A DNA stretch of 34,344 bases, taken from contig CAMOEE010000002.1 of NCBI GenBank assembly GCA_946611835.1, positions 1 to 34,344 of the forward strand, given 5' to 3'. Origin of the DNA: an uncultured Treponema sp. (GTDB lineage Bacteria; Spirochaetota; Spirochaetia; Treponematales; Treponemataceae). Within the stretch, counting starts at the first letter, position 1; the number at the start of each line of letters is the position of its first letter. The position numbers and the translations under genes are program-made. Shown here one piece after another: positions 15,695-27,640 of the stretch. Under the pieces are notes generated by a model, which worked only from the letters and a program-made list of their open reading frames with translations, had not been told where the DNA came from and searched no databases.

Positions 15695-16354
15695 ATGATT
15701 AAACTTGTCGCATTTTTAGGAAATTACGGTGAAGAATACAAGAATTCACGGCACAATGTAGCCTGGCAGTTTGCAAGCCAGCTTCCTTTTTACAATAAAT
15801 TTTACTTCCAGAACAAATTCAAGGGCGATTATGCAGTCGTTGAGACACGAACTCTGGCCGAATGGATGGGCGAGACAGGCGTATATACCACAAAAGATGG
15901 CGGTGTACCACGAGTCCCGGAAGAAGCTCCCGATAAAATCTACTTTCTCAAACCCCTTACCTACATGAATCTTAGCGGGGAGTCTATCGGCGAGCTGGCA
16001 CACTTTTTCAAAATCAAGAACGATGAGATTCTTGTCGTGCATGACGAGCTGGAGCTTCCCATCGGCACCGTGAGCCTCAAATGGAGCGGGGGCCTGGGCG
16101 GTCACAACGGTCTCCGCTCTGCAAAAGCCGTTTTGGGTACAGCCGATTTCTGGCGGCTCAGGTTCGGAATCTCAAAGCCTGCCAATGTCAACATCGCTGA
16201 CTATGTGCTCTCAAACTTTAGCGCTGACGAGCGGATAATCCTTGCCCAGGAATTTGTTCCCACAAACGAGATGTTCTGCAAGCTTTTGCTTTCCACCGAG
16301 CCAAACCGTATCTTACAGGGCTGGAGCAAAAAGAAAATCGTGGAAAATTCCTGA
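15695..16354 (+). CDS. pth: Peptidyl-tRNA hydrolase
   Basis: The 219-residue protein cleaves peptidyl-tRNA released from stalled ribosomes. It carries the family landmarks: FLGNYGEEYKNSRHNVAWQ near the N-terminus with the catalytic His in SRHN, KPLTYMNLSGES, VVHDELELPIG, and GGLGGHNGLRSAKAVLGTADFWRLRFGI. It is somewhat longer than the usual 185-195 residues because of an insert at about residues 50-80 (ETRTLAEWMGETGVYTTKDG) between the N-terminal strand region and the KPLTYMN motif. It starts a transcription unit with its own promoter; mazG follows after 27 bp with a separate promoter. Confidence 0.95.
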   Translation: MIKLVAFLGNYGEEYKNSRHNVAWQFASQLPFYNKFYFQNKFKGDYAVVETRTLAEWMGETGVYTTKDGGVPRVPEEAPDKIYFLKPLTYMNLSGESIGELAHFFKIKNDEILVVHDELELPIGTVSLKWSGGLGGHNGLRSAKAVLGTADFWRLRFGISKPANVNIADYVLSNFSADERIILAQEFVPTNEMFCKLLLSTEPNRILQGWSKKKIVENS

Positions 16355-20471: not shown

Positions 20472-21188
20472 CTAAAAGAGTTTGATTTCGCCCCTTGGAG
20501 TTGGCATTTCCTCAAAAGTGTAGTCACCGAATCTGTCCTGAATGATTCTGTAATAATGGCAGACATTCTTTTCTTCGTCACGGTGAACATCAACAATTGC
20601 AAAAGTGTTCGGCATTCCGCCGCGAGCCTCGGAGCAGCTTCCAGGATTCAGAATCCCGAGAAAGTCATTCCGCCCGTTTCTTGTGACATGACTTCGCACA
20701 GAATTAGGAACATGAGTGTGGCCGTACCAGGCAAGGTCCATGCCCCGGTTTATGGCTTCGGCTCTCAAGTCCTTGATTCCGTAGTAGACTCCGTAGCGGT
20801 GCCCGTGGGTCAAAAAAAGTTTTTTGCCGGCAATCTCAATTTCCTGGAATTCCGGGACCGTAACCGGTATTCGCTTGTCGGTGAAGATTGTTGCCCTTGA
20901 GTTGTCTCCGTTTCCCCGTACGAAATACACCACAGGCGGAATGTGACAACCGAAATCCTTGTCAAAGAATCCGAGTTCCAGCGTTTCAACCAGATCCAGA
21001 AGTCCGTCTCCACAAAAGCAGAGAAGATCGCATAAATGCCCGAAGTTTTTGATAATTGCCTGCATTACTCGTATGTTGCCATGAGAGTCAGAAATCACGA
21101 GGGCTTTGGCAAGTTCTTTTGCCGGAATAGAGGAAACTGCTTCAAATGATCCGATTGCCAGATTTTCCTGCTGCGTGAGTTCTATCAT
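20472..21188 (-). CDS. YfcE/MJ0936-type metallophosphoesterase
   Basis: The protein has 238 residues. After a roughly 25-residue extension come the calcineurin-like motifs in order: ISDSHGN, CFCGDGLLDL, RGNGDNSR, LTHGHRYGVYYG, WYGHTHVPN and the terminal strand LNPGSCSEARG. All metal-binding Asp, Asn and His residues expected for the YfcE family are visible. These enzymes are Mn-dependent phosphodiesterases with unknown natural substrates. The protein is longer than YfcE (about 180) at both ends. It begins 7 nt after the stop of the upstream lipoprotein gene and has only a weak Shine-Dalgarno, so it is probably translationally coupled. Confidence 0.88.
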   Translation of the reverse strand: MIELTQQENLAIGSFEAVSSIPAKELAKALVISDSHGNIRVMQAIIKNFGHLCDLLCFCGDGLLDLVETLELGFFDKDFGCHIPPVVYFVRGNGDNSRATIFTDKRIPVTVPEFQEIEIAGKKLFLTHGHRYGVYYGIKDLRAEAINRGMDLAWYGHTHVPNSVRSHVTRNGRNDFLGILNPGSCSEARGGMPNTFAIVDVHRDEEKNVCHYYRIIQDRFGDYTFEEMPTPRGEIKLF

Positions 21189-21195
21189 TGGATTT

Positions 21196-21993
21196 TTACT
21201 CGAAGATAAAGTGATTTATTGATTGCAGGCCGGTTTCGCCGTCAATGTAGCGAATGACCGTGCGGTTCTTTTCCAGGAGTTTTTGCACGAAGCCCTGCAG
21301 GTTTTTGTCGGCCTTTAGAGGCTGCCGGAGCTCTATCATTTCTGAAATTGCGTTGGTGAGGATTTGGTTCGCATCAAAATCGGGGATAAAATCCGTGACC
21401 TCACCCTCGATTGTGTTTGTTTTGTGCGCATAGTCGAGCACAAAGTCGGAAGTTGACTCTGAGCCGAGAACATCATCCTGTGAAAAGAAGGTGAAGATAG
21501 GGTAGGGAATTTTGCCACCCTCAGCTTTGTCCTGAATCTTTGAGAGCGCAATGTGAAGGCCTTCCGGAGCACCCATGATTATCATGCCGGCAAGGTTCTT
21601 GTCCTGGACTGTGTCTACGAGTGAGCTGATTCTCTCTTTGCCTGCGACCATAAAATCAGCCGGGTAAACGAGAATTGAGATAAGACCTGCTTTATCCTCA
21701 CTCTCAAGACCGAAATTTGAATCGAGCGACTGCGTGATTTTTGTGATATGCTCGACATCATTGTAGCCGTATCCCAAAATTACGATGATATTTTTGCCCT
21801 CGATATAGGCCTGTGTTTCCGGGGACAGTTTTCGGAGCTTGACCGGTGTTCCGTCATTTTCTGACAGCAAGTTTGTCGTAGAGTCATGTTTTTTGTCTTT
21901 TTTGCAGCTTGAAAAGGTGAATGCCGAACAAGCGGCGAGTGCAAGAAAAGCGAATTTAAGAAAACTTCTGTTTGTATGGAAAACTTTTAGCAT
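21196..21993 (-). CDS. Putative periplasmic lipoprotein, substrate-binding-like
   Basis: The 265-residue protein has a basic N-terminus and hydrophobic core, then FSSC with Cys about residue 30 and a charged KKDKKHD stretch, consistent with a lipoprotein signal. The mature part has alternating strands and helices (NIIVILGYGYNDVEHITKI, AGLISILVYPADFM, NLAGMIIMGAPEGLHIALSKI, YPIFTFFSQDD), reminiscent of a periplasmic-binding-protein fold such as the DUF3798 group. I do not recognise it firmly. No transporter genes are next to it; its operon partner is the metallophosphoesterase. A putative leaderless promoter lies directly upstream. Confidence 0.65.
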   Translation of the reverse strand: MLKVFHTNRSFLKFAFLALAACSAFTFSSCKKDKKHDSTTNLLSENDGTPVKLRKLSPETQAYIEGKNIIVILGYGYNDVEHITKITQSLDSNFGLESEDKAGLISILVYPADFMVAGKERISSLVDTVQDKNLAGMIIMGAPEGLHIALSKIQDKAEGGKIPYPIFTFFSQDDVLGSESTSDFVLDYAHKTNTIEGEVTDFIPDFDANQILTNAISEMIELRQPLKADKNLQGFVQKLLEKNRTVIRYIDGETGLQSINHFIFE

Positions 21994-22954: not shown

Positions 22955-24178
22955 TTAGAATGCTATAGCAGCATTGATTTTAATCTGAGTTTTTGTGTCA
23001 CCGATATGTTTGATTGTATCGGCATCATCCTTTGCTATGTACTGACCGAAGCTTACTCCGACTGAGAAATCGCTGAGCACCTGCCAGTTGAGGCCGAGCG
23101 AATACTGAAGGCCGGCATATTTGATGCTTTCGCAGGCGTCGAATACAAGGTCGCCGTTTGTGTAAACAAGAAGGTTCGGAATAGGCTTAATTGAAGCCGC
23201 AAGACCTGCTTTTGTGAGTTCTTTGTACTCTGCTTCTGTTGTTGAGTTTACAGCAGTGCCGCTCGTGAAACCTTCGAATTTTTTGAAACTTCCCTGTTCT
23301 CCTGAGGCATAGAGACCGTCGAGGGCAATTGACATTGATTTGAAGCCCGGATAAACGACGATAGAAGCTTGTGATAGATTGCTTGTTTCCATATCCTGTT
23401 CATCAGCTTTTGAGAAAGCGAAAGTTGATGAAAGATTGTAGAAGACTTTCGGAACAAGAGGTCCATTGAGCGCCAAAGTTCCGTAATATCGGTTGAATTT
23501 TTTTGACTCAAGAGACTGTGCGATAAATCCTTCGGCTGAGATTGTCTGACTTGCGAAAAGGTTTGGAAGGGAGACTGTGAGAGTACCAACCAGATATTTG
23601 TTTGCAAGGACATAAAGTGTTTTTGCCTTGCCATTCATATCTGGCTGGTCATTTTTATCCTTTTCGAGAATCGTGATGTTCTTTGCGTTGAGAAGGCCTG
23701 TATATGCTCCGAAAAGCGAAACAGAGACTTTCGGAAGGTTTGCGGTAAACTTAACTCCGTCGGCGTTTTGTGTGTATGCAAGACCGCTCAAATCTGCGTT
23801 GAAAAACCGGCCTGCTGTGAAAACGAGGTCACCAGCATCAAGCTCTTTGTTGAGGACGAGTTTGAAAAGGTTTACATCAAGTGAGACCTTGAACTTGTCG
23901 TCGTCATCAGCGATGGAAGCATCGTATTCTGATTTAAATGCGCCCTCGGTTGTGAAGTAGCTTTTGCCGTCTTCGCTTAGAGGTGCTCTGAGCCAGAGGT
24001 TGATGGTATTCTTCTGGTCGAGCTTTAAATCAAACGGTTCGTTTTTATCAGAAGCATCTTTTTTGACATTGGCGAATTTGCTGTCATTGTTGATGAGACC
24101 GCCTGTTTCTAATGCGAAAACATTTACCGCAGAGAGAAGTGCGATGCAGCTAAAGATTTTTTTGACTGTGATTTTCAT
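22955..24178 (-). CDS. Putative outer-membrane beta-barrel (porin-like) protein
   Basis: The 407-residue protein has a signal peptide (MKITVKKIFSCIALLSAVNVFA). Alternating polar/hydrophobic strands run throughout (FKVSLDVNLFKLVLN, GVKFTANLPKVSVSLFGAYTG, YLVGTLTVSLPNLF, LQYSLGLNWQVLSDFSVGVSFGQYIA). The chain ends in IKINAAIAF, with the terminal Phe typical of outer-membrane barrels. It is therefore likely a pore or surface protein of the spirochaete outer membrane. I do not recognise a named family. The ATG overlaps the stop of the upstream gene (TAATG) and an AGGAG lies close by. The FecR protein starts 16 nt downstream, so the two are co-produced. Confidence 0.7.
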   Translation of the reverse strand: MKITVKKIFSCIALLSAVNVFALETGGLINNDSKFANVKKDASDKNEPFDLKLDQKNTINLWLRAPLSEDGKSYFTTEGAFKSEYDASIADDDDKFKVSLDVNLFKLVLNKELDAGDLVFTAGRFFNADLSGLAYTQNADGVKFTANLPKVSVSLFGAYTGLLNAKNITILEKDKNDQPDMNGKAKTLYVLANKYLVGTLTVSLPNLFASQTISAEGFIAQSLESKKFNRYYGTLALNGPLVPKVFYNLSSTFAFSKADEQDMETSNLSQASIVVYPGFKSMSIALDGLYASGEQGSFKKFEGFTSGTAVNSTTEAEYKELTKAGLAASIKPIPNLLVYTNGDLVFDACESIKYAGLQYSLGLNWQVLSDFSVGVSFGQYIAKDDADTIKHIGDTKTQIKINAAIAF

Positions 24179-24678
24179 TATTCAGCTCCTTCTACAATTT
24201 CAAGGCATGAAGTGAAGAGATCGATTGACTCGCGGCCAGAAAGCTTCATTGCCGGGTCTGTTTCGAGAGGAAGGATACCTTTTGCCTTAAGCTCCTTGAA
24301 AGCGTAGCGGGCAGAAGGAAATAGGGTGTAGAATAAGCCGCCTTTGATACCGAGCGCCTTCATGTAAACGAAGGAAGCCTGTGCCACAGTAACTTCTTTG
24401 TTTGCCTCTGTATCAGAATTGAAGAAATTGTTTGATTTTAGGGCCTCGAATGCCTCGACTGTTGCTGCCGAAGAATCTTTTGAAGCGCTCATTGCCCCTA
24501 GTGATTTTGCAGAGTCAGACTCGGTGATTAAATTTGCATATAGTGCCGGAAGGTAAGATATTTGTGCACATGTCGCTTTTTCGGAATCAATGATTTCTGA
24601 AATGACTTCGGAACTCTGTGAAAAAGCAAAGCTTGCTCCGAGCAAAAGTAAAACGCTACATAGCAGAGTCTTTTTCAT
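24178..24678 (-). CDS. Small exported protein of unknown function, first gene of the FecR operon
   Basis: The 166-residue protein has a signal peptide (MKKTLLCSVLLLLGASFAFS). The mature part is mostly helical (SSAATVEAFEALKSNNFF, VTVAQASFVYMKALGIKGGLFYTLFPSARYAFKELKAKGIL). I see no catalytic motif and do not recognise the family. The stretch on exported partners resembles SLH-like or S-layer-associated helical repeats only loosely, so no function is proposed. AAAGGAG upstream is a good Shine-Dalgarno, and the promoter 41-69 nt upstream is part of the bidirectional palindrome shared with the cyclase. Its stop overlaps the porin start by one base, implying coupled expression and perhaps a joint role at the outer membrane. 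Confidence 0.65.
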   Translation of the reverse strand: MKKTLLCSVLLLLGASFAFSQSSEVISEIIDSEKATCAQISYLPALYANLITESDSAKSLGAMSASKDSSAATVEAFEALKSNNFFNSDTEANKEVTVAQASFVYMKALGIKGGLFYTLFPSARYAFKELKAKGILPLETDPAMKLSGRESIDLFTSCLEIVEGAE

Positions 24679-24710
24679 TTTTAAACTCCTTTTCTTAAAA
24701 TAATTTTATT

Positions 24711-24747
24711 TTGAATCTATTATAACTTGTGTTATAATATTTGTCAT
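24711..24747. promoter_or_regulatory. Overlapping divergent promoters built on a 20-bp palindrome
   Basis: ATTATAACTTGTGTTATAAT (24719-24738) is a perfect 8-bp inverted repeat around TTGT. Plus strand: TTGAAT (24711-24716), 16-bp spacer, extended -10 TGTTATAAT (-10 at 24733-24738), then 7 nt to the cyclase ATG at 24746. Minus strand: ATGACA (24747-24742), 17-bp spacer, TATAAT (24724-24719), with start near 24712 and a 34-nt leader carrying a Shine-Dalgarno. Each promoter lies partly inside the other's spacer, so polymerase binding should be mutually exclusive. Confidence 0.75.
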
Positions 24748-27640
24748 GAAAAAAGAAAACAAAAATCAAAAAGATTCCAAAAAAAATCTTCCGAGAAAAA
24801 TTGTTGCTTTAATCATTGTGGCCGCCGCTTTTGTATTCTGGTCGCTTGTTTGTGCTATCGGAGCACTGGAAAAATTTGACTACCGAATTTATGATTTGCT
24901 TCTTGGATTTACGAAAAACCCTGAGACCAGGCCGGAAATTCTTCTTGTAGAGGCGGACAATGCTTCAACAAGCAATGATGCATATGACGAAATGAAAACC
25001 TGGCCCTGGCCCCGCGATATTTTTGCCAATGCGCTTCTCCGAATGAAGGAATTCGGAGCGGCGACAGCGGTATTCGATATTGAATATCTTTCGCCTTCAA
25101 GTCTTGCCGTCAATGAGGATGCCATTATCGAAGCAAACAATAATTTTGACGGAACAAAGCCTGATTTTACCAAATTCGTAAAGGACAATGACGATTATCT
25201 GGCACGGGCCATTCAGTTTTTTGGGAACACATGGCTTACAATCAATACGGATGACCTTGACTTTGACTATACCGAAGATGAAATCAATTATGTAAAAAGC
25301 CGTTTCCTTTACGAAGTAGAGGATAAACATGACTTGATTCTTAAAGATTACAGGCAGGGAAAGCTAGACAGCATTAAAACTTCATTTATCGATAATTTCC
25401 GGGAGCCAAAAGCAGACTGGGACAATGCGGAATTCCGTAAAAAATACCTTATTGGTTTTTCACCTGTGATGAATTTGTTCGCAAGTCATGCTTCGGGAGC
25501 CGGATTCACGAATGTCATTATCGACATGGACGGAACCCGGCGAAGAATCGAACTTTTGAACAAAAAAGACGGGGTCTATTCCGGCCAGCTGGCTTTTGCT
25601 CCTATCCTCAAAACCCTGAACCCGGAAAAAATCATACGAAAAAAAACTTCTCTTGATTTGACTAATTGCCGGGGCGTAGGCGGAAAAAACATTAATATTC
25701 CTCTTGATTCCAAAGGAAAAATGATAATCAACTGGCTTCATTCCCTTTATATCGATTCATTCAGACATGAGAGTATGCTAATTCTTGCCCAGCTTGATCA
25801 TCTTGAGAAGAATATAGTTTCAGAACTTAAGAACCTTGATACTTTCCTTGCTTCACTTGAAGGGGCTGAGGTAAAAGGTCTTGATTTGCCGCCTCTAGAA
25901 GCCGCCGCAAGTGTAAGACAGCTTGTTTCTGATTACTCGGACATCTCTGATTTCAAGGACTTCCTTCTTTCAAAATGTGAGGGCTTTGACATAGAAGGAA
26001 ATGCGATTGGCGGTGGCGTTGAATATGCTGATTATGTCCAGTATTTTCAGGCACGAAAAGATTTCTTTGCGAATGTGACCCGCTTTGTGGGCAAGGCCGG
26101 CCAGCAGAAGCTCCCTGCTTTTGATGAAATCTCTGAGCGGCTTATGGTTCTGTCTGACTATATTTCTACGGAAGAGCAAAAAACTATTTACGAAGACCTT
26201 GCCAATCTCTTTGATACCTTGCAGAACGAAAACAGCCTCTATAATTCAATTTTTGAGGACAAAAAAGAAGTCTACGCAAATTCCTTCTGTATTCTTGGTC
26301 ATACGGCCAGCTCAACAACAGATTTGGGTACAACTCCTTTTGAGCGGGCTTACATGAATGTCGGAACCCATGCCAGCGTCTACAACACGATTATGAACCA
26401 GAACTTCATTTATCCCTTAAACTGGATTTGGGGTGCACTTATATCCCTGATTTTTTCTATTTTAATGATTGTCATGCCTGCAAACAAAAAGGCTGTAATT
26501 CAGAATATAAGCGGTGTCAGCCTTTTTGTGATTTCACTGATTGTTCCTGTGGTTTTAATCGTGGCTTTCAGCGTGTATATTCCTGCCCTTGCGGCGATTT
26601 TGATTGCTTTCACTTCCTACCTTGGAATGACGATTTACAGGTTTGCAAACAGTGAAAAAGACAAAAAATTCCTGCAGACGACATTCGGTGCTTATGTTGC
26701 TCCGGCAGTCGTCGAGCAAATCGTAAAGAACCCGGAACTTGCAAGCTTGGGCGGTAAGAGCGACATGCTCACGGCCCTTTTCTCTGATGTAAAATCATTC
26801 TCGGCTTTCACTGAGGTAATTAACAATGAAGCAGGCGAGGACAAGGGCGCTGAAAGGCTCGTTGCCGTTTTGAACGATTATCTTGGCGTTCTTAGTGACG
26901 CTATCATGGATAACAATGGTACAATCGATAAATATGTCGGTGACGAAATCGTATCCTTCTTCGGCGCTCCTGTTCACGATGAAAACAACGCTTTTGATGC
27001 CTGTGTCGCCGGAATCCGCATGCTGCAGGCCGAAAAACGCTTCAACGAGGAAAACAAAAACCGGCTTCCAATCAACCCTCAGACCGGCGAGCCTTTCTTC
27101 CTGCATTCTCGGGTCGGTTTGAACACAGGAAACATGGTCGTCGGAAACATGGGCACGGTGAAAAAATTGAATTACACAATCATGGGTAACAATGTAAACC
27201 TTGCATCACGACTTGAAGGAACGAACAAGGCTTACGGCTCATGGATTATGTGTTCGGAGTCAACCTGGAATGCGGCCAACCGTGGCGAGAACGAGGGCAA
27301 GATTATCGCCCGAAAATTCGACTGCGTAAGGGTTATCAATGTCAAAAGGCCTGTGGGAATCTATTCGATAATCGGCCTGAGAAATGAGCTCAGCGAAAAA
27401 CGAATCAAGGCGACTGAGATTTTCAACGAGGGTATGAACTGGTACTTAAAGGGAATCGATACGCCCCAAGAACCGAAAGACATTGAGGACCTGAAAAAGG
27501 CATACCAGCTTTATAAAGAGGCTGACGCACTTTACCCCATGGACGAAAGCTCAAAAGTCTTCATGGAAAGGTGCGTGGACTTTATCAAAAACGGAATCCC
27601 TCAAATCTGGGATGGCGTTTATACAATGAAGAGCAAATAA
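24746..27640 (+). CDS. CHASE2-domain membrane adenylate/guanylate cyclase
   Basis: The 964-residue protein has an N-terminal membrane anchor (residues about 19-42). A long extracytoplasmic CHASE2 sensor follows (FDYRIYDLLLGF, EILLVEADNAS, WPWPRDIFANALLRMKEFGAATAVFDIEYLSP, later INWLHSLYIDSF and CILGHTASSTTDLGTTPF). Three membrane segments lie at about residues 556-635, and a class III catalytic domain from about 670 (LFSDVKSFSAFTE, IDKYVGDEIVSFFGAP, HSRVGLNTGNMVVGNMG, YTIMGNNVNLASRLEG). Metal-binding Asp residues, the purine-binding Lys and the Asn/Arg transition-state pair are present. The Thr in YTIMG points to a class IIIb adenylyl cyclase, so cAMP is the more likely product. The CHASE2 domain carries an unusually long helical insert near residues 345-500. 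Confidence 0.92.
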   Translation: MKKENKNQKDSKKNLPRKIVALIIVAAAFVFWSLVCAIGALEKFDYRIYDLLLGFTKNPETRPEILLVEADNASTSNDAYDEMKTWPWPRDIFANALLRMKEFGAATAVFDIEYLSPSSLAVNEDAIIEANNNFDGTKPDFTKFVKDNDDYLARAIQFFGNTWLTINTDDLDFDYTEDEINYVKSRFLYEVEDKHDLILKDYRQGKLDSIKTSFIDNFREPKADWDNAEFRKKYLIGFSPVMNLFASHASGAGFTNVIIDMDGTRRRIELLNKKDGVYSGQLAFAPILKTLNPEKIIRKKTSLDLTNCRGVGGKNINIPLDSKGKMIINWLHSLYIDSFRHESMLILAQLDHLEKNIVSELKNLDTFLASLEGAEVKGLDLPPLEAAASVRQLVSDYSDISDFKDFLLSKCEGFDIEGNAIGGGVEYADYVQYFQARKDFFANVTRFVGKAGQQKLPAFDEISERLMVLSDYISTEEQKTIYEDLANLFDTLQNENSLYNSIFEDKKEVYANSFCILGHTASSTTDLGTTPFERAYMNVGTHASVYNTIMNQNFIYPLNWIWGALISLIFSILMIVMPANKKAVIQNISGVSLFVISLIVPVVLIVAFSVYIPALAAILIAFTSYLGMTIYRFANSEKDKKFLQTTFGAYVAPAVVEQIVKNPELASLGGKSDMLTALFSDVKSFSAFTEVINNEAGEDKGAERLVAVLNDYLGVLSDAIMDNNGTIDKYVGDEIVSFFGAPVHDENNAFDACVAGIRMLQAEKRFNEENKNRLPINPQTGEPFFLHSRVGLNTGNMVVGNMGTVKKLNYTIMGNNVNLASRLEGTNKAYGSWIMCSESTWNAANRGENEGKIIARKFDCVRVINVKRPVGIYSIIGLRNELSEKRIKATEIFNEGMNWYLKGIDTPQEPKDIEDLKKAYQLYKEADALYPMDESSKVFMERCVDFIKNGIPQIWDGVYTMKSK

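Follow-up and report, generated by a model that had tools for sequence, protein, structure and literature searches.

Genes and promoter elements of the locus

The window, that is, the whole stretch of 34,344 nucleotides that was analysed, contains a gene for a CHASE2 - class III adenylate/guanylate cyclase and, on the opposite strand, an operon which starts with a 166-aa protein and continues with a putative outer-membrane barrel and a FecR-domain protein. The two are separated by an intergenic gap of 67 bp (84% A+T), lying between the ATGs at 24678 (minus) and 24746 (plus). The features of the locus are presented in Table 1. The original prediction named a FecR/porin operon as the partner of the cyclase: the FecR domain is found by Pfam, but the identity of the 'porin' is unconfirmed, as the 407-aa putative barrel has no confident Pfam match, and the first gene of the operon (166 aa) matched no Pfam family.

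Table 1. Positions in the window of the genes and of the observed or predicted promoter elements
Feature	Position	Strand	Remarks
Palindrome TATTATAAC-TTGT-GTTATAATA	24718-24739	both	Pair of opposed -10s with 8 bp between them; direct reading
Plus -10 TATAAT, cyclase promoter	24733-24738	+	7 nt before ATG; promoter scan
TRTG extended -10 motif (TGTG), plus promoter	24728-24731	+	Column conservation, non-redundant divergent set
TTGAAT, plus -35 of the original prediction	24711-24716	+	16-bp spacer; in promoter scan; probably not required
Minus -10 TATAAT (ATTATA on plus), divergent operon	24719-24724	-	Promoter scan; comparison
Minus -35 ATGACA	24742-24747	-	17 bp from minus -10; overlaps cyclase ATG 24746-24748; promoter scan
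Predicted plus transcription start (= cyclase ATG)	24746-24748	+	-10-to-ATG gap of 7 nt; no Shine-Dalgarno
Predicted minus transcription start	24710-24712	-	Deduced from the minus -10; column -23 is T (A on minus) in 39 of 50
AAGGAG, Shine-Dalgarno of the 166-aa gene	24686-24691	-	Direct reading; 46/49 homologs have an SD core
CHASE2 - class III adenylate/guanylate cyclase, 964 aa	24746-27640	+	Pfam CHASE2 5.5e-29, Guanylate_cyc 4.3e-14
166-aa protein, signal-like N-terminus, first gene of divergent operon	24178-24678	-	Syntenic in 68 loci
407-aa putative outer-membrane barrel ('porin')	22955-24178	-	Syntenic
FecR-domain protein, 283 aa	22087-22938	-	Pfam FecR 2.6e-07; syntenic
265-aa protein, downstream	21196-21993	-	Same strand; syntenic in part of the loci
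Metallophosphoesterase, 238 aa, downstream	20472-21188	-	Same strand; Pfam Metallophos_2 3.3e-23; syntenic in part of the loci

The gap contains a palindrome whose perfect 9-bp arms (24718-24726 and 24731-24739, by direct reading) flank TTGT; the prediction that TATAAT stands on both strands within it is correct to the letter. In a promoter scan of 6 kb the two opposed promoters are the best two of 11 sites (11/12 and 10/12 matches), where 8.6 promoter-like sites are expected by chance. The plus core (24728-24738) is nested in the minus core (24719-24747), so that the two promoters share the same DNA on opposite strands, as overlapping divergent promoters do. An intrinsic terminator was also considered and rejected: the stem would have one G-C pair per arm, and the palindrome is absent among the terminator-like sites of the scan.

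Comparative survey of the genus

Of 200 genomes of the genus Treponema, mostly metagenome assemblies, 157 have a homolog of the cyclase at E < 1e-90. Upstream DNA was taken for about 125 homologous loci, of which 105 had a usable start; the cyclase start codon was picked by its distance to the first transmembrane segment. Based on tblastn, the divergent operon (166-aa protein, barrel and FecR) is in place in 68 of the 105 loci, while in 28 loci the upstream gene (at least 200 codons) is co-directional; two of these genes were translated and both are RNase III (by Pfam for one). The co-directional loci form a more distant branch (~39% identity) and are therefore no pure test of the loss of the partner, and related genomes in the survey are not independent.

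A plus -10 was counted when it had at least 5/6 matches and lay 5-9 nt before the ATG, and an opposing -10 was sought at each spacer from 0 to 25. Such a plus -10 is present in 60 of the 68 divergent loci (at exactly 7 nt in 52, absent in 8) and is kept in 23 of the 28 co-directional ones; in 8 of the 68 divergent loci, among alternative ATGs, the one with the better -10 was taken, and if the most upstream ATG is always used the counts become 53/68 and 21/28. The opposing -10 is found at a spacer of exactly 8 bp in 49 of the 60 divergent loci with a plus -10 (absent there in 11), against 0-8 of 60 at any other spacer, and in only one of the 23 co-directional loci with a plus -10. Four of these 11 divergent loci have it at spacer 9.

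The minus -35 was said to overlap the start codon of the cyclase. The element is present as described, and in the relatives it (TGTCAT or TGTCAA on the plus strand, 3 nt past the plus -10) is found in 45 of the 49 loci which have the left -10, but in only one of the 11 divergent loci without it and in none of the 23 co-directional loci. Both elements thus occur together in 45 loci, singly in 4 and 1, and in 10 there is neither (Fisher p=1.4e-7, with relatedness ignored). Across the 50 non-redundant divergent loci the flanks are saturated, with column information of about 0.1 bit, against 0.5-2 bits in the elements. Substitutions in both -10s are mainly TATAAT to TATACT or TATAGT, as expected for -10 hexamers. 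When the partner barrels were grouped at 45% identity, 32 clusters were obtained, and the complete interlock of the two promoters is found in 18 of them. A search for AKTATA-N8-TATAMT-N3-TGTCA in 196 genomes gave 53 matches, most of them at the cyclase locus, and the reversed control gave one.

As judged from this comparison, the interlocked layout is kept in about 45 species, and only where both gene sets stand back to back. The expectation that the palindrome would be conserved while the genes stay divergent mostly holds (spacer 8 in 49/60, spacer 9 in four more), and the reading of the site as a bidirectional promoter is strongly supported, as loci with no divergent gene lack the minus half. 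That only one direction is a promoter, the opposing -10 having arisen by chance in AT-rich DNA, is extremely unlikely: it is favoured by the base composition of the gap and by the chance counts given below, but it does not account for an opposing -10 at a single spacing in 49/60 loci against 1/23 in the control set, nor for its coupling to the minus -35. A natural variant of the interlock is seen in a sub-clade of five loci (L034, L036, L091, L093 and L094), where both -10s stand at spacer 9 (ATTATA-ACATGGGTT-TATAAT type) and the TGTCAT -35 at the start codon is missing.

Chance expectation of the palindrome

Dinucleotide shuffles of the 67-bp gap contain an inverted repeat with arms of at least 9 bp in 1.75% of cases and ATTATA..TATAAT in 0.5%. 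Only two perfect inverted repeats (arms of at least 9 bp, loop of at most 10) are found in the 34-kb window; the second, also with 9-bp arms, lies at 1466-1484 (TTCTTCTGAGTCAGAAGAA). The 2.5-Mb genome from which the window comes has 15 occurrences of ATTATA-N0-30-TATAAT and 11 of the reversed control. The spacer is 8 in only two of the 15 places, which indicates that the interlock is specific to the locus and no genome-wide habit; the second of the two (contig C142) has no -35 and no clear divergent gene pair. Since the motif alone is near chance genome-wide, the case for the palindrome rests on its conservation. In so AT-rich a gap chance alone could yield the palindrome (~2%), but the relatives show that it is under selection. 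A chance origin was rejected on the ground of the conservation across relatives.

The plus promoter and the predicted leaderless start of the cyclase gene

In the non-redundant divergent set, columns -5 to -2 before the plus -10 read T in 38/50, A or G in 50/50, T in 44/50 and G in 42/50 loci, i.e. TRTG. A plus -35 with at least 4/6 matches at spacers 16-18 is found in only 5-8 of the 50. The plus -35 proposed originally (TTGAAT, 16 bp) is therefore present in the sequence of the window, but it is rare in the divergent homologs and not kept among the relatives. A TG upstream of the -10 (42-44 of 50) together with a weak or absent -35 is what characterises extended -10 promoters, and on these columns the plus promoter is assigned to that type, as TRTGnTATAAT without a conserved -35; the original prediction had overlooked this. 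Co-directional homologs have a plus -35 at spacer 17 in 14/23 loci. It is plausible that the plus -35 was lost because its place coincides with the start site of the minus promoter.

No Shine-Dalgarno core is found upstream of the cyclase in any of the 49 interlocked loci, whereas the partner genes have one in 46/49. Leaderless genes are recognised by a -10 about 7 nt before the start codon and by the lack of a Shine-Dalgarno, and both are found here. As the plus -10 ends 7 nt before the ATG, the mRNA is expected to begin at the ATG; a start at 24745/24746 would leave no leader, a consequence that the original prediction did not draw. The cyclase mRNA is accordingly predicted from its sequence context to be leaderless, with a start at or within 3 nt of the ATG. 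It is highly unlikely that transcription starts further upstream, giving the cyclase a leader and leaving the ATG-adjacent -10 unused. Other weak promoter-like matches do exist at 24672-24723, but starts from them would fall inside the leader of the partner, and this reading is at odds with the missing Shine-Dalgarno (0/49 homologs), with the fixed distance of 7 nt in 52 loci, with the -10 before the ATG in co-directional loci too, and with a genus-wide excess of -10s at that distance from the ATG.

This excess was counted in ORFs of at least 200 aa in loci L031-L194 and in the window: among the other ORFs of the fetched DNA, 53 -10-like hexamers lie 5-8 nt before the ATG (four positions), against about 3 per position elsewhere, and a Shine-Dalgarno is found in only one of the 24 strict cases. 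The excess before ATGs without a Shine-Dalgarno makes leaderless genes look like a general class in the genus. One such gene in the window (15695-16351, plus strand, 219 aa; TTATAATATCCGC-ATGATTAAACTTGTC...) is probably leaderless too, and a -10 likewise immediately precedes the ATG of its homologs in L031 and L033.

The cyclase has yet another neighbour in a clade of 10 genomes (L142, L144-L148, L150-L152 and L044), where the divergent gene codes for a class I/II aminotransferase and the two start codons are some 46 bp apart. All 10 genomes have the arrangement CAT-N7-ATTATAGCG...CGCTATAAT-N7-ATG, in which both genes appear leaderless. The palindrome of this clade (ATTATAGCG-N11-15-CGCTATAAT) is conserved, with a -10 spacing of about 21 and no interlock. 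From these arrangements, the cyclase appears to keep its leaderless start with three different neighbours.

Geometry of the probable interlocked promoters

The layout is very probably that of two complete, interlocked sigma70-like promoters on the same 38 bp, reading in opposite directions: a leaderless extended -10 promoter on the plus strand and a leadered promoter with a -35 on the minus strand. The elements, their spacing, the dependence on a divergent partner and the absence of a cyclase Shine-Dalgarno are seen in the comparison itself, whereas the actual start sites and the use of sigma70 would follow from them. From the plus promoter, the cyclase mRNA would begin at the ATG or no more than 3 nt away. 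The minus promoter would combine the -10 in the opposite arm with a -35 (TGACA) that lies across the cyclase ATG, and would yield a normal leadered mRNA for the 166-aa/barrel/FecR operon. The palindrome would then exist because two -10s must face each other at a fixed distance: the plus -10 is held in place relative to the ATG by the leaderless start, and the minus -10, at 17 bp, by the overlap of -35 and ATG, so that exactly 8 bp remain between the two.

Operators, too, usually look like a near-perfect two-fold site between divergent genes, and some relatives have the fully symmetric 20-mer ATTATAACATATGTTATAAT. On such a reading a dimeric transcription factor would have its operator here, as the main role of the site, and the two TATAAT matches would be incidental or secondary; this is very unlikely. 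Its conservation is asymmetric, with TRTG strong on the plus side, and on the minus side a weaker TG but a -35 kept at 17 bp, which is the pattern of two promoters and not of one symmetric operator. Furthermore, co-directional loci retain the plus half in the absence of the minus half, the bases at the centre are variable (ACTTGTGT, AACTATGT, CTATATGA and CATCGTGA), and the position of the site is fixed relative to the ATG. The operator was rejected as the main reading because the conservation is both asymmetric and promoter-like.

An 8-bp interlocked pair of -10s is also found at an unrelated locus, where a gene for an HxlR-family regulator faces another gene (L181-L184 and L186, e.g. L184:2264-2291; genomes G097, G098, G219 and G221). 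There TTGACG-17-TATAAT stands against TTGACA-17-TATAAT, so that the pair is fully two-fold with near-consensus -35s on both sides. The presence of the geometry at this gene pair, in four genomes, means that it arose at least twice.

Predicted polymerase exclusion and possible regulation

The size of the polymerase footprint is established. With both cores on the same 38 bp, two polymerases should not be able to sit there together, and mutually exclusive binding would follow from the full overlap of the cores. The consequences of this overlap hinge on promoter strength: competition was negligible in five E. coli bidirectional promoters at their low basal level of firing, and set in when one of the directions was activated (PMC12825309).

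Speculatively, the site may act as a switch between cAMP signalling and the envelope operon. Such a switch would be a genus-wide conserved exclusion device without a regulator: polymerase loading at the cyclase gene would block the envelope operon and vice versa, and the start codon would double as the -35 of the partner; we put this forward tentatively, as a minority expectation. If it is true, coding start, transcription start and the promoter of the neighbour are one inseparable element. Plain compactness is an equally fair reading with respect to use as a switch, though not of the anatomy. That the promoters are real but their interlock is mere compactness, with basal activity too low for polymerase competition and no regulatory coupling, has a chance somewhat short of even. 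The low basal firing of the five E. coli promoters (PMC12825309) speaks for it, as does the clade which pairs the cyclase with an aminotransferase gene at spacer 21 and has no interlock; on the other hand, the interlock has survived deep divergence although separate promoters would seem easy to reach by drift, and both -10s are near consensus. The ~45 natural variants, the loci with one half only and the second, unrelated gene pair make promoter exclusion directly testable.

Comparison with known systems

Beck and Warren reportedly defined a class of overlapping divergent promoters. In Tn1721 tetR/tetA, a plasmid resistance module with Tet operators, a leaderless tetR mRNA lies beside overlapping divergent promoters; to our knowledge it is not known to share the Treponema interlock geometry. 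In the open-access literature we found no report of a start codon serving as a divergent -35 and no work on the cyclase/FecR locus in treponemes.

Concerning leaderless transcripts, the map of transcription start sites of Leptospira interrogans contains about 440 mRNAs with leaders of <10 nt (PMC5243855). In these a -10 immediately precedes the ATG and a Shine-Dalgarno is missing, as at the Treponema cyclase; however, Leptospira belongs to a different spirochaete order and its leaderlessness was measured (PMC5243855), whereas that of the cyclase is predicted and combined with a divergent interlock. No start-site map for gut Treponema was found in the open-access literature, and we predict that leaderless genes form a general class in this group. 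Leaderless translation would let the start codon double as the -35 of the neighbour, which a gene led by a Shine-Dalgarno could hardly do.

The bidirectional promoters described by Warman and Grainger have divergent starts 7-25 bp apart, with optima at 10, 18 and 23, and one shared -10 (PMC10268837, PMC12825309). The Treponema pair resembles them in its predicted divergent transcription from one short symmetric site, at which two polymerases should likewise be unable to bind at once (PMC12825309, PMC10268837), and, like those promoters, which are enriched between divergent genes, it lies between divergent genes. It differs in that it has two separate -10s, 8 bp apart and constant across relatives, in that its starts are predicted from the -10 positions to be about 35 bp (33-36 bp) apart, and in that the -35 position of each promoter falls on the predicted start of the other. 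The separate -10s and the predicted distance of the starts place the pair outside the published definition of bidirectional promoters. It would thus be an interlock class beyond the defining spacing, kept over deep divergence in one genus.

A closer likeness is seen to the promoters Pc and Pr of plasmid pLS20, which are likewise two distinct core promoters on the same DNA in opposite directions, one start being 6 bp from the -35 of the other promoter (PMC4207663). Unlike Pc/Pr, the Treponema pair has no known regulator or looping, its -10 pair is near-perfectly symmetric, the ATG of the leaderless gene lies inside the -35 of the other promoter, and the arrangement is conserved genus-wide. On its sequence features, the Treponema interlock is placed with pLS20 Pc/Pr among the overlapping divergent promoters, and what is new within this class is the combination of a symmetric -10 pair, a predicted leaderless gene, a start codon in the -35 of its neighbour and conservation across a genus.
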